Below the pieces are notes generated by a model. The model saw only the letters and a program-made list of their open reading frames with translations. It made no database searches and was not told where the DNA came from. From Candidatus Gastranaerophilales bacterium (lineage in GTDB: Bacteria; Cyanobacteriota; Vampirovibrionia; Gastranaerophilales; Gastranaerophilaceae): DNA of 64,000 nucleotides. How positions within the stretch are numbered: position 1 is the first letter of the stretch; each line of letters starts with the position of its first letter. The position numbers and the translations under genes are program-made. Below are positions 35,437-39,992 of this stretch, piece by piece. The stretch lies in the NCBI GenBank assembly GCA_944324845.1, contig CALUXX010000001.1, positions 124,001 to 188,000 on the forward strand, written 5' to 3'.

Positions 35437-36078
35437 TTAGTTATCTGTTTTAGGACAAAGTTTTGAATATTCACAAAATTTACAGTTTGATGGATTGCAT
35501 TTGTATATTGTGTCATTTGTGATTTCATTACAAATATTAGTGAGGCGTTTTGAATATTCTTTTTTTAATTTTTCGTTGTATTCGATAACGTAGTTTTTTG
35601 TGTTTTTTACATCTATATATACAAATGAGATTGGAAATTTATTTTTTAGATTTTCTTCAAGGCATAACAGATAAATCATTGTTTGGTAGTCATATTCGGG
35701 GTTTTTAGGAATTGAGCCTGTTTTGTAATCAAGGATGTAATATTTTTCATCATCTTTTACTACAGCATCAAGTCTTCCGCCTACCCAGTAATTATTTATT
35801 TTACAAGTTAGGGAGTATTCTGATTTGTAGCAGTTTTTTTGAAAAAAAGGATTGTTTAATAGAGAATGCCATAATTCAGTTTCGTTTTCATTTAGAGCTG
35901 TTTCTATTCTTGAAATATTTATTTTTTGCAGGTAGTAGTTTGCAAGGGCGTGAATTTTTTTACCTTGTTCAAATTTTAGAAATGATGTCGGTACATTTAT
36001 TTGTTCTATAAATTTGTAGTAGAACTTTTTGGGACATGTTTGATATGTTTTTAGCATATTTGGTGAAAAACTATTCAT
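35437..36078 (-). CDS. Fe-S PD-(D/E)XK nuclease, AddB/Cas4-like
   Basis: A single-domain nuclease of 213 residues. It carries the RecB-nuclease set: His43 in GKKIHALA, Asp104 in GGRLDAVV, Asp117 and Lys119 in ILDYKTG, and the following Gln in YDYQTMIYLL. Cys15 together with Cys199, Cys202 and Cys208 gives the C...CX2CX5C pattern that holds a 4Fe-4S cluster in AddB. Its start overlaps the end of the giant helicase gene by 8 bp, so the two are translated together and very probably act together on DNA ends. Cas4 is the other similar family, but no CRISPR genes are present. Confidence 0.85.
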   Translation of the reverse strand: MNSFSPNMLKTYQTCPKKFYYKFIEQINVPTSFLKFEQGKKIHALANYYLQKINISRIETALNENETELWHSLLNNPFFQKNCYKSEYSLTCKINNYWVGGRLDAVVKDDEKYYILDYKTGSIPKNPEYDYQTMIYLLCLEENLKNKFPISFVYIDVKNTKNYVIEYNEKLKKEYSKRLTNICNEITNDTIYKCNPSNCKFCEYSKLCPKTDN

Positions 36079-39000
36079 TGTCTGCAATTACCCCCAATAA
36101 ATTTCTGAAAATACAACTTGCTTCTTGTTTTTGTTCTTTATTAAATTTGTTTTTTATTGATGAAGATGTTGTTATGTATAATTTGTTTTTTGCTCTTGTT
36201 ATGGCTACATATAAAAGTCTTAGGTTTTCGGATAAGATTTCTTGTTTTAGTTCATATTGTGATTTCGGTTTATAGTTTGGATTTAGGTTTTTTATCGATT
36301 CTATAAATTCTGAAGATTTAAGATTGATTGTGTTTATTGACAATGGAAGATTTCTTTCGGTCATTTCCGGCATGAATACAAGGTTAAATTCATCCCCTTT
36401 TGATTTGTGCATTGTCATTATTTGAATTTTTCCCGCAAGATATTTTTTATCATCTTCGTCTTCTTCTGAGAAAAATTTAAATCCGCTAAGGTTTGGTTTT
36501 TTAGACAATTCTGTTAGTCTGTTTAGTGCATATTCAAGTGAGTTATTTTTTATGCAAATTCTTTTGGTTAAGGTTGAGATTAAGTAGATGTTTGATTTTT
36601 CGATTTCACTTTTGAAATAATTCATCCCGATTTTTAGTACCAGTTCATCAGGTGTCAGGTAGCATAATGTTACGAAATAGTTTAATTCCCAATAAAATCG
36701 TTCAAGTTCAAAATCGTTAATTGTGTCTGAATTTATGCAGATAAAAGGCGAATCATATTTTCTGATTTCTATATCTAAGCCTCTTTTATAAAATCCTGCA
36801 TCAGCTAATGTTTCGTAGCAGCCTGCAACAATTTCATTGTTAAAAGGTTCTAGTATCATTTTCATAACCGCAAAAACTACTTTGAATACGGATTTTTGTT
36901 CAAGACATTGGTTTCTTGTGATTACTTTTAGTCCGCTGTTTTCTATCAAATTTTGCCATGCTGCAACTTGATAATTGTTTCTCAAAAGTATTCCCACAGT
37001 GTAGTCAGGATGTTTTGTCAGGGTTGATTTTATGGTATTAAGAACAAAGTTTTTTTCATCAAGTCCTGTTTTGAAAATTTCACCGATAACAGAATGTGTA
37101 TTGTCTGTTGGTTCAGGGTTTTTACCTAAAACAGGGTGCATGTACATTTCAAAAAATGAGTTTTTAGATTCCGGGTTTGATAGTGTGTTTTTGACCAATT
37201 TGTTTGCAAATTCCCAGACATCTTTTGTACAGCGTTGAGAACAATTCATGCTTACGTTGTAGTTTTCTGTAATAAATTTTCTAAAACCTTCTACATCAGC
37301 GTTAGAAAATGTTGCTGTAATTGATTGGTTTACATCCCCGCATCTTATGACATTATTAAATTTCCCTGATAGCAGAGTGATTAGTTCTTGTTGTACTTTT
37401 GAGGAATCTTGTGCTTCATCTTCTATTATGTATTCACAAATTCCTTGGTAATAACTTAGTATATCAGGATTTTCTTTTAGAAGTCTTACTGAACCTGTCA
37501 GCATATCATCATAATCAATCAGGTTAAATTCTTTTAGGCTGTCTTGATATAGTTTATAAAACATTTCAAAGTTTTTTATTCGCTTGTCTGTAATTACTTG
37601 TGAAAAATTTCCGCCTCCTATTTTGAATACTGAAACTCCTCTATCAAATTCTTCGGCAGTTTTTTGTTCAAGGTGTAGTTTAGTTGCAATTTCTTTTAGA
37701 ATACGGCTTCTTTGTGAGTCGTCACAAATTTCAAAATCTCCTGATAATCCGAGGCGTTCGTAGTTCCCGTTTTCTTTTAGTATTCTTAGTGCAAGTCCGT
37801 GAATTGTGCTTATGTTTGGTAATTTGGAAGAGTTTTTGCGAACATTTTTTATTCGTTCTCTGAAGTTTCTTGCAGCTGAATCCATGTAAGTTAGTACAAA
37901 TATTCTTTCAGGATTAGTTCCGCATTCAAGAAGTTTTATGATTAGGGCAAGCAATATTGTTGTTTTGCCTGCTCCCGGAACGGCTGAAATTCCCATATAG
38001 CCTTTTCTATAATCAAGTACAGGTTTTTGATCTTCTCTTGGAGTTATTTTGAATTGTTTTTCATTATTTTCTTCTTGTTCACTATCTTCTTTTACTACAA
38101 TGTAGTTTTCAATTCCGCCGTAGTTTTCAACTCCGTTTGAGTCAAACAAACTTGAATAACAAAAATTTTTTTCTTCTGTACCTAGTGCGAGTTTTCTTAA
38201 TACTCTTGCGTTTTTATCTGTCGAAAGATTTATGTTATCTTCTATTGTGTATTCTTTTTTATCCCAATCTTTTTGAAATACCCAGGCATTATATAATGGT
38301 CCAGTATCGCTTTTTATCCAACCGGAATTTGAAATATCAAGCCAAAAACGGTATTTTGATTTTATGTGGTTGTCTATTATTTTTTGCGGGGTTGAAACGA
38401 TTATGTCATTTGGGTTTATGTTCAATATAGAATATGGATTTTCTGCAATTATGGAATTTTCTATTTGCAGAATAATATCAACTTTTCGGCTGTTAAATTC
38501 TTTGCCAAATACATTTTCAAAATCTGTCAGTTGTTTTATGAAGAAATTAAATTTGTTTAATTCTTCTTTTGTATAATTTCGTTGTGATAGAACTTCGTTA
38601 TAAATCATTATGACAAGTTCGGAAATTTTAAATTCGGTTTCGGAGATTAAGTTTAGGACTTCAAGTAGATTTTTGTATCGGTTGTTGTATTCTTCATCTT
38701 CAAATTCGTGATTTGGAAGTTGTTTATTATCATCAAAATATTCAGAGATTTTTTCGCAATATTTTATTGGAATTTGCAAAATCTCAGAGAGTATTATTTT
38801 TATATCTGAGGCAGTTAATGTTTTTTTTAGTTCGGTATTAAGTTTGAGAATTGTTATTGTTGCTTGAACCAATTTGTTTTGGATTAGTTTTTCGCTTCCT
38901 GACAGGTATAAAAGGTTTATGTTTTTTTTAAGGTTTTCTTTTAGCGAAAATTTTAGCATGTCATCTATTACCGGTGAAACTATTGAAATTTGACATGGTT

Positions 39001-39958
39001 TTACTTTTTTTTGTAAAAGCTCTGTGATTTTGTTTGTAACTTCATCTATCATTGATGAACGTTTTGCATAAGATTTATGGGAGAAGTTTTTTAGTATGTT
39101 TGATTCTCCGTTATTGACATTTTTGAATAATTCGTTTGCCGTTAGTGATATTTCTATAGGTTCTTTTGCTGTTATAACATTGTTTCCAAAGACGTTTTTC
39201 AGTTTTCGGTAGTTGTTTTTATCAGCACTTAAATATCCGCATCTTGATGAACCTAATTTATCAATCGCGATATAATAATCTTTTAATTGTTTTGACAAAT
39301 GCAAAATAAAATCTAAACAAATAGGAGTACATTCATCTGCATCATCAAGGATTAAATATTTTATATCCTTAAAATAGTCAGTATTTTTGTATATATAATT
39401 AAATAAAAGACACTGTCTAAGATAGTCAAAATCTCTAAGTTCAAGCGTTTTTTTGAGTAGTTTTTTTATTGCAAGGTTTGCATCATCAGAAAAGCCTTCT
39501 TTTAGAATTTTAGCTCTTTCATCAACTTCCGCTTGGGATAAATTATTTTGTATAATAAGTGAGTATCTTCTAAAAATCTGATGAAGCAGTGATAATCTTG
39601 AATTGTACCCTTTGAATTTAACCTCTTTTAAAATATCTTTTAATATGAATTGCGAAACTTCTAATCCTGCAAGATTAGGCAGAATAACAGGATTATCAAA
39701 AATGTTTCTGTCTTCTAAAAAAGCCCAATTATCGGAAATAGTGTTGAATACAAGTGAATAAAACGAATGAACCTGTAATTTTTCAAATCCTGTAATAGTT
39801 AATTTTTCAAGGGTTTTCTCAATGAAATGTTGTTTAAGAGTGGAGTTTTGTACAAGAACAAGAATTTCAGATGAATTAACCCCATGATTTAAGAGGCCAG
39901 CATATTTATCAATAAGAAAATCTGTTTTGTCAGAAGCAATGCTACCTTCAATAAACAA
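36071..39958 (-). CDS. Double UvrD-type helicase with dead N-terminal half (AddAB-like)
   Basis: About 1295 residues. Numbering from the frame's upstream ATG at 39991: the N-terminal half (to ~640) follows a superfamily 1 helicase plan, but its Walker A is degenerate (EGSIASDKT, 15-23) and Walker B reads LDDADE, as in the inactive helicase of AddB. The C-terminal half has AVPGAGKT at 670-677, IEDEAQDSS, GDVNQSIT, TMHKSKGDEF and LYVAITRAKNKLY, so it should be an active motor. TGGTATAAT lies 1 nt before ATG 39991, so that ATG would not be transcribed; GAAGGAG then points to TTG 39958. Likely a DNA double-strand-end resection enzyme with the downstream nuclease. Confidence 0.82.
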   Translation of the reverse strand: MFIEGSIASDKTDFLIDKYAGLLNHGVNSSEILVLVQNSTLKQHFIEKTLEKLTITGFEKLQVHSFYSLVFNTISDNWAFLEDRNIFDNPVILPNLAGLEVSQFILKDILKEVKFKGYNSRLSLLHQIFRRYSLIIQNNLSQAEVDERAKILKEGFSDDANLAIKKLLKKTLELRDFDYLRQCLLFNYIYKNTDYFKDIKYLILDDADECTPICLDFILHLSKQLKDYYIAIDKLGSSRCGYLSADKNNYRKLKNVFGNNVITAKEPIEISLTANELFKNVNNGESNILKNFSHKSYAKRSSMIDEVTNKITELLQKKVKPCQISIVSPVIDDMLKFSLKENLKKNINLLYLSGSEKLIQNKLVQATITILKLNTELKKTLTASDIKIILSEILQIPIKYCEKISEYFDDNKQLPNHEFEDEEYNNRYKNLLEVLNLISETEFKISELVIMIYNEVLSQRNYTKEELNKFNFFIKQLTDFENVFGKEFNSRKVDIILQIENSIIAENPYSILNINPNDIIVSTPQKIIDNHIKSKYRFWLDISNSGWIKSDTGPLYNAWVFQKDWDKKEYTIEDNINLSTDKNARVLRKLALGTEEKNFCYSSLFDSNGVENYGGIENYIVVKEDSEQEENNEKQFKITPREDQKPVLDYRKGYMGISAVPGAGKTTILLALIIKLLECGTNPERIFVLTYMDSAARNFRERIKNVRKNSSKLPNISTIHGLALRILKENGNYERLGLSGDFEICDDSQRSRILKEIATKLHLEQKTAEEFDRGVSVFKIGGGNFSQVITDKRIKNFEMFYKLYQDSLKEFNLIDYDDMLTGSVRLLKENPDILSYYQGICEYIIEDEAQDSSKVQQELITLLSGKFNNVIRCGDVNQSITATFSNADVEGFRKFITENYNVSMNCSQRCTKDVWEFANKLVKNTLSNPESKNSFFEMYMHPVLGKNPEPTDNTHSVIGEIFKTGLDEKNFVLNTIKSTLTKHPDYTVGILLRNNYQVAAWQNLIENSGLKVITRNQCLEQKSVFKVVFAVMKMILEPFNNEIVAGCYETLADAGFYKRGLDIEIRKYDSPFICINSDTINDFELERFYWELNYFVTLCYLTPDELVLKIGMNYFKSEIEKSNIYLISTLTKRICIKNNSLEYALNRLTELSKKPNLSGFKFFSEEDEDDKKYLAGKIQIMTMHKSKGDEFNLVFMPEMTERNLPLSINTINLKSSEFIESIKNLNPNYKPKSQYELKQEILSENLRLLYVAITRAKNKLYITTSSSIKNKFNKEQKQEASCIFRNLLGVIADNE

Positions 39959-39992
39959 TTTCAATACTCCTTCTATACTATATTTTAGCATA

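Follow-up and report, generated by a model that had tools for sequence, protein, structure and literature searches.

We describe a pair of overlapping genes in a Candidatus Gastranaerophilales bacterium (class Vampirovibrionia), one of the gut-dwelling relatives of cyanobacteria. The pair is best interpreted as a helicase-nuclease lineage of its own whose anatomy resembles that of AddAB and AdnAB and whose two helicase subunits have become joined in Vampirovibrionia. The combination of a dead helicase and a live one with an Fe-S nuclease is a hallmark of bacterial double-strand-break resection, and the same design seems either to have arisen here on a different motor lineage or to have split off very early. 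We favor, with some reserve, the view that the pair is a DNA-end-processing helicase-nuclease whose lineage is separate from RecBCD, AddAB and AdnAB. The window, as we call the whole stretch of 64,000 nucleotides that was analyzed, belongs to a genome of 1.96 Mb that is 99% complete and whose contig 1 holds the pair (genome G000).

Both genes lie on the reverse strand, as do all window coordinates given below. The helicase gene (36071-39991) encodes 1306 amino acids from its ATG and, on the evidence of its ORF, Pfam matches and full-length conservation, specifies a tandem SF1 protein with a degenerate N-terminal half (N-half) and a predicted active C-terminal half (C-half). The nuclease gene (35437-36078; ORF, Pfam, NCBIfam) encodes an Fe-S nuclease of the Cas4/RecB family, 213 amino acids long from an ATG at 36078; an alternative TTG start at 36087, 9 nt upstream of the ATG, would give 216 amino acids (35437-36087). 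The helicase stop and nuclease ATG share the overlap ATGAATAG (36071-36078), an arrangement that suggests coupled translation, and a GGGGG stretch stands ~11 nt upstream of the nuclease ATG. Pfam places UvrD-helicase at residues 654-907 (2.6e-45) and UvrD_C at residues 1176-1277 of the larger protein and detects no PDDEXK domain in it, the chain ending shortly past motif VI. This long gene is kept from end to end in further genera of the order and also in three additional families of the class, which argues that it is not a chance reading frame. The first-pass annotation had described just such a tandem of dead and live helicase and a free, overlapping nuclease, and both descriptions hold.

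The flanking ORFs read as housekeeping genes (FtsH, DnaA, RuvA, DnaJ, GcvT/H), and no cas genes are found among the ORFs at 29-46 kb of the window. Because dnaA and ruvA adjoin the pair only in the nearest relative and the neighbors are otherwise not conserved, we rejected dnaA-ruvA synteny as a functional clue; with neighbors this variable, gene context offers no support except for recJ in Salinibacter, described below. As a separate observation, helicases at three loci of the window's genus (L057, L058, L059) carry in-frame insertions at residues ~267-448 that hold DUF559/Vsr-like endonuclease sequence, identified by reading the sequence alone, with peptides encoded by palindromic repeats (PLKGG...ALQGQRG) on either side. 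Two more loci, L060 and L072, are listed with these, L060 having the repeat only, and the nuclease genes of L029, L057 and L073 contain further in-frame inserts. The inserts in both genes appear to resemble Rickettsia palindromic elements or a homing-type insertion.

The C-half (residues 645-1306; 36074-38059) is predicted to be a complete 3'-5' motor of the SF1A (UvrD) type, with matches to PF00580 and UvrD_C. Its Walker A motif AVPGAGKT (residues 670-677; 37961-37984) and motif II EDEAQD (857-862; 37406-37423) are invariant, the alignment places motif III GDVNQS at residues 885-890 (37322-37339) and motif VI VAITRAKNKLY at 1262-1272 (36176-36208), and the key motifs do not vary across 18 aligned proteins. 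A profile of this half matches PcrA at 1.6e-75, AddA at 7.1e-47, AdnB at 2.5e-35 and AdnA at 3.6e-13; against the addA equivalog it scores 91 bits where the cut-off is 707.65, and it misses every AddA/RecB equivalog cut-off widely. A phylogeny of 33 helicases (LG+C20), from which AdnAB is absent and in which branches are long, joins the C-halves and the Salinibacter helicase in a clade of their own (100/99) outside AddA/RecB. Separate clades unite PcrA/UvrD (98/97), UvrD-Cas4 fusions (100/100) and AddA with RecB (84/81), and the clade nearest to the C-half, with weak support, is that of the UvrD-Cas4 fusions.

The N-half of the window protein (residues 1-632; 38096-39991) gives nothing over cut-off in Pfam or NCBIfam; among 16 aligned members, PF00580 matches this half in 10 (best 2.2e-11). 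An AlphaFold2 model built from 78 sequences (pLDDT 85.2, pTM 0.83), compared by Foldseek, indicates a degenerate SF1A/UvrD-like core, and in this model the half folds as a complete UvrD-type helicase. The best Foldseek matches are all SF1A: UvrD, PcrA and Rep lead by E-value, and the best overall superpositions are on AddB (TMq 0.63-0.67, rmsd 7.2-7.5; 0.67 and 7.2 for 4cei_B), with AdnB at 0.58-0.66 (0.66 for 9np6_B) and AdnB and AdnA together spanning 0.57-0.66. A viral fold library returned only UvrD/RecD-like viral helicases. Profile-profile comparison aligns the core with that of the C-half (98.6%, 7.9e-16), and hhalign matches the N-half to UvrD (98.3%, 1.2e-14), to AddB (94.5%, 7.4e-8; about 93-94% across two runs) and to RecC at 0.1%. 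A first hhalign run had marked the N-half as specifically AddB-like, a reading that we dropped because, with a better UvrD set, AddB proved a closer match to UvrD than the N-half was. From the fold and profile results, the first-pass expectation of an SF1 fold is borne out and the term dead helicase stands; AddB is an analogy rather than a demonstrated kinship.

Across the entire family it is motifs II-VI that are degenerate. Motif II of the window protein is LDDADE (residues 215-220; 39332-39349), of which D219 and E220 are invariant in the order; judged by eye in the alignment, motif II is DDxDE-like, STPQK...LDV replaces motif V and RKL...E replaces motif VI. The decayed Walker A noted in the first pass is present as EGSIASDKT (residues 15-23; 39923-39949) and is a local feature: the decay is seen in the window's genus and a loss in family f6, and an intact GxxxxGK[ST] occupies the site in the majority of the order's other families and of the more distant homologues. 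Since relatives keep an intact motif, we rejected its decay as proof of a dead helicase. An N-half whose Walker A is kept in relatives recalls AddB, whose ATP site is retained and supports the Chi complex (PMC4824097), and on the strength of the model we regard the N-half as a putative DNA-holding or scanner domain.

By its sequence, the 213-residue protein is an intact PD-(D/E)XK nuclease with C...CX2CX5C cysteines. It belongs to PDDEXK_1 (PF12705, 4.9e-24 in Pfam), and H43, E87, D104, D117, K119, Q132, C15, C199, C202 and C208 are invariant in 69 nuclease sequences; nucleases of families f9 and f15 space their last three cysteines differently. It also exceeds the NCBIfam cas4 cut-off (TIGR00372, 75.3 bits against 65) with no cas genes nearby, and automatic annotation would thus probably name it Cas4. 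An AlphaFold2 model (pLDDT 91.2) is closest to ACE1, an Argonaute-associated member of the Cas4 family, and to AdnA, with a TM-score of up to 0.70 (7sjr_A); in Foldseek these are followed by Cas4, AddB's own nuclease matches more weakly, and the nuclease domains of AddA and RecB are matched as well.

Unfused homologues exist beyond the class. On plasmid pSR56 of Salinibacter ruber, adjacent genes SRM_RS00110-RS00120 (L256) encode proteins of 717, 772 and 294 amino acids, annotated as hypothetical protein, ATP-dependent helicase and PD-(D/E)XK nuclease, and are followed by recJ; they match our N-half profile over its whole length (4.7e-21), our C-half profile (8e-87) and our nuclease profile (4e-13), and the N-half homologue has an intact Walker A. 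Ilyobacter polytropus pILYOP01 (L277:6983-8956) encodes a stand-alone N-half homologue of 657 amino acids (7.6e-39 over the whole profile), annotated as a UvrD-helicase domain protein, with Walker A intact, motif II degenerate and no helicase or nuclease beside it. The N-half profile further matches ~100 genomes from other classes of the phylum (G325-G523) at genome-level scores of 1e-6 to 1e-21, and no phages; in one of these genomes (G418) the homologue does not lie within the ~1.14 of 2.50 Mb examined. The pattern is explained most simply by an original three-gene enzyme, the two helicase genes of which later joined in Vampirovibrionia; a splitting of the fused gene in Salinibacter could also account for it.

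The pair is present nearly universally in the order, a group of gut bacteria. The helicase occurs in most of the 17 genera around the window, where some copies are split by contig ends, with ~37-40% identity outside the window's genus, and as single proteins of ~1370-1480 amino acids in families f9, f14 and f15 of the class. A scan of named genomes recovered 80 helicase loci, 79 of them with the nuclease on the same locus and those that bear a name mostly from Candidatus Gastranaerophilales/Melainabacteria, and the two genes overlap in distant families too. Of 289 genomes from the class, with presence scored at E below about 1e-15, 201 have both genes and 70 have neither; 17 have the helicase alone and one the nuclease alone (G119, 81% complete). 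These counts share ancestry, as the genomes are not phylogenetically independent. Conservation of the pair, on which the first-pass annotation had staked its reading, is therefore broad. Helicase and nuclease are jointly absent from G179, G252, G254, G050 and G053, and the nuclease is retained in unlinked form in f2, f6, f14, parts of f3 and several f1 genera. The helicase stands without a detectable free nuclease in 14 genomes of genus g36, two of g32 and one of g47; nine exception genomes that were checked have PDDEXK_1 proteins only above 930 amino acids, no nuclease adjoins the helicase at the g36 loci, and two g36 proteins examined at full length have intact C-half motifs. The missing nuclease in g36 weakens strict coupling, and the genomes of the three genera led us to reject obligate pairing.

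The window's genome, the only one examined in full, is without AddAB or RecB. Its PF00580 proteins are two of PcrA/UvrD type, a UvrD-Cas4 fusion, the window gene and one weak match that is another helicase, and its PF12705 proteins are the fusion and the window nuclease only. None passes the cut-off of the addB model, and apart from the fusion none combines PF00580 with PF12705 as RecB; the canonical enzyme that the first-pass annotation had wished to see excluded is thus not there. The fusion, 1026 amino acids long with a C-terminal CX2CX5C (contig 3:120412-123491, reverse strand; L006:5412-8492) and found in several relatives at 1019-1066 amino acids, is a second helicase-nuclease of this genome, unrelated to the pair, so the pair may not be the principal enzyme of resection. 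Elsewhere in the class, family f8 has a canonical pair (L150) of AddB (1033 amino acids) and AddA (1137 amino acids), so both systems occur in the class. The g32 genomes, which keep the fused helicase and lack the free nuclease, have an AddAB-like pair of 931-936 amino acids without Walker A and 1109-1125 amino acids (L229:2265-8349, L230:2443-8542), both proteins with terminal clustered cysteines. Family f10 has a different arrangement (L161:77-6327), an 828-residue protein followed by a UvrD-type protein of 1256 residues with C-terminal CX2CX5C.

By analogy with known enzymes, we infer that the pair carries out DNA-end resection. Given its complete SF1A motifs, the C-half would be the only motor, moving 3'-5' on one strand and splitting the duplex; its fold suggests that the N-half, the other member of the tandem, probably grips or reads the exiting single strand, as the helicase-like domain of AddB or RecC does and as in the Chi scanner model of AddAB (PMC4824097). 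The free Fe-S nuclease would join this complex and, if the analogy with the AddB nuclease extends to strand choice, cut the 5'-ended strand to leave a 3' overhang for RecA. In AddAB, cutting of the 5' strand falls to the AddB nuclease, and it is the AddA nuclease that is silenced at Chi (PMC4824097). A single nuclease of AddB/Cas4 type would leave no AddA-like 3'-strand nuclease to switch off, and the enzyme may have one resection mode without Chi-type attenuation. We offer only tentatively, as possible rather than probable, the fuller proposal that this is a further family of resection enzymes whose motor is unrelated by descent to RecBCD/AddAB, built from dead helicase, live helicase and free Fe-S nuclease, with three genes in Rhodothermota and two by fusion in Vampirovibrionia, that cuts the 5' strand only and therefore has no Chi switch. 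Because a single chain holds the dead and live parts and the nuclease is a free protein, genetics can tell the functions of scanner, motor and nuclease apart, and the lack of an AddA-type nuclease provides a clean test of whether a dead helicase is kept only for reading Chi.

Could the pair be a diverged AddAB, a nuclease-less AddB fused to a nuclease-less AddA with the AddB nuclease set free? The parts inventory is identical, the N-half fold is as near AddB as anything in the PDB and has a high hhalign probability against it, the nuclease has AddB's cysteine spacing, and canonical AddAB is found in the same class, in f8. We nevertheless consider this unlikely: the C-half falls outside the AddA/RecB clade and scores far below the addA cut-off (91 versus 708 bits), the N-half is no nearer AddB than UvrD, the nuclease lies closer to ACE1/AdnA than to AddB, and the three-gene Salinibacter form is not an AddAB pair. 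The separate C-half clade and this three-gene version in another phylum lead us to abandon the first-pass idea of AddAB parts re-divided among genes and to keep its suggestion of a distinct lineage of recombination enzyme, in which the recombination role is conjectural. An AdnAB relative, with an AdnA-like dead motor fused to an AdnB-like live one and an AdnA-type nuclease separate, would suit the top TM-score of the nuclease model, the superposition of the N-half on AdnB and AdnA and the AdnB and AdnA matches of the C-half profile; that profile matches PcrA and AddA better than AdnB, and one stand-alone nuclease here contrasts with a nuclease on both AdnA and AdnB, which makes this reading quite improbable.

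The exceptions to pairing point another way, to a UvrD-like accessory or repair helicase with the Cas4-like nuclease as a frequent separate partner, for example on RecJ intermediates. The helicases of g36, g32 and g47 that lack a free nuclease, two g36 C-halves among them with intact motifs, and the unlinked genes of several families agree with it; the pair is otherwise gained and lost together, and the genes overlap in distant families, and we hold this explanation to be doubtful. Very improbable, finally, is an anti-phage or CRISPR-related system joining Cas4 and UvrD in a Gabija-like manner. PADLOC reports GajB and Cas4 matches, the nuclease exceeds the cas4 cut-off and UvrD-Cas4 fusions are tied to defence loci (PMC5704561), but the GajB matches reflect generic UvrD similarity, the presence of the pair in the order is vertical and nearly universal, and the surrounding ORFs are housekeeping-like, with no cas genes at 29-46 kb.

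A distinct lineage with a familiar anatomy thus remains our preferred reading, and its likenesses and differences can be set against known systems. Shuffling of RecBCD and AddAB has reportedly been surveyed in 2009. Like AddAB of B. subtilis (PDB 3u44, 4cei), the pair combines a live SF1A motor, an inactivated SF1 helicase-like domain and an Fe-S PD-(D/E)XK nuclease; unlike AddAB, it has both helicases on one chain, no AddA nuclease, a live half outside the AddA/RecB clade and a nuclease that is a free protein, encoded by a separate gene that in several families is unlinked. In solved structures, AdnA and AdnB each have a C-terminal nuclease and are separate chains. The pair resembles mycobacterial AdnAB (PDB 6ppu, 7sjr, 9np6) in its dead and live UvrD-like motors and in a nuclease fold near that of AdnA, and differs in having one nuclease-free motor chain and one free nuclease in place of two motor-nuclease chains. 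UvrD-Cas4 fusions, which have been described and linked to defence loci (PMC5704561), likewise join a UvrD-type motor to a Cas4-like Fe-S nuclease, but they have a single motor, a C-terminal nuclease and no dead half, whereas the window nuclease is separate and the clade distinct. An unfused operon of UvrD and Cas4-like genes, mostly from Clostridiales and in non-defence contexts (PMC5704561), shares the separate genes and, compared by description only, includes no inactive helicase half. The nuclease shares the Cas4 fold and Fe-S cysteines of CRISPR Cas4 (TIGR00372, Foldseek), unlike which it has no cas genes among the ORFs around it. The available portions of surveys of recombination (PMC1193525) and cyanobacterial repair (PMC5101192) contain no fused dead-live helicase. 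A further counterpart is the Salinibacter trio, in which N-half, C-half and nuclease are all present as three separate genes.
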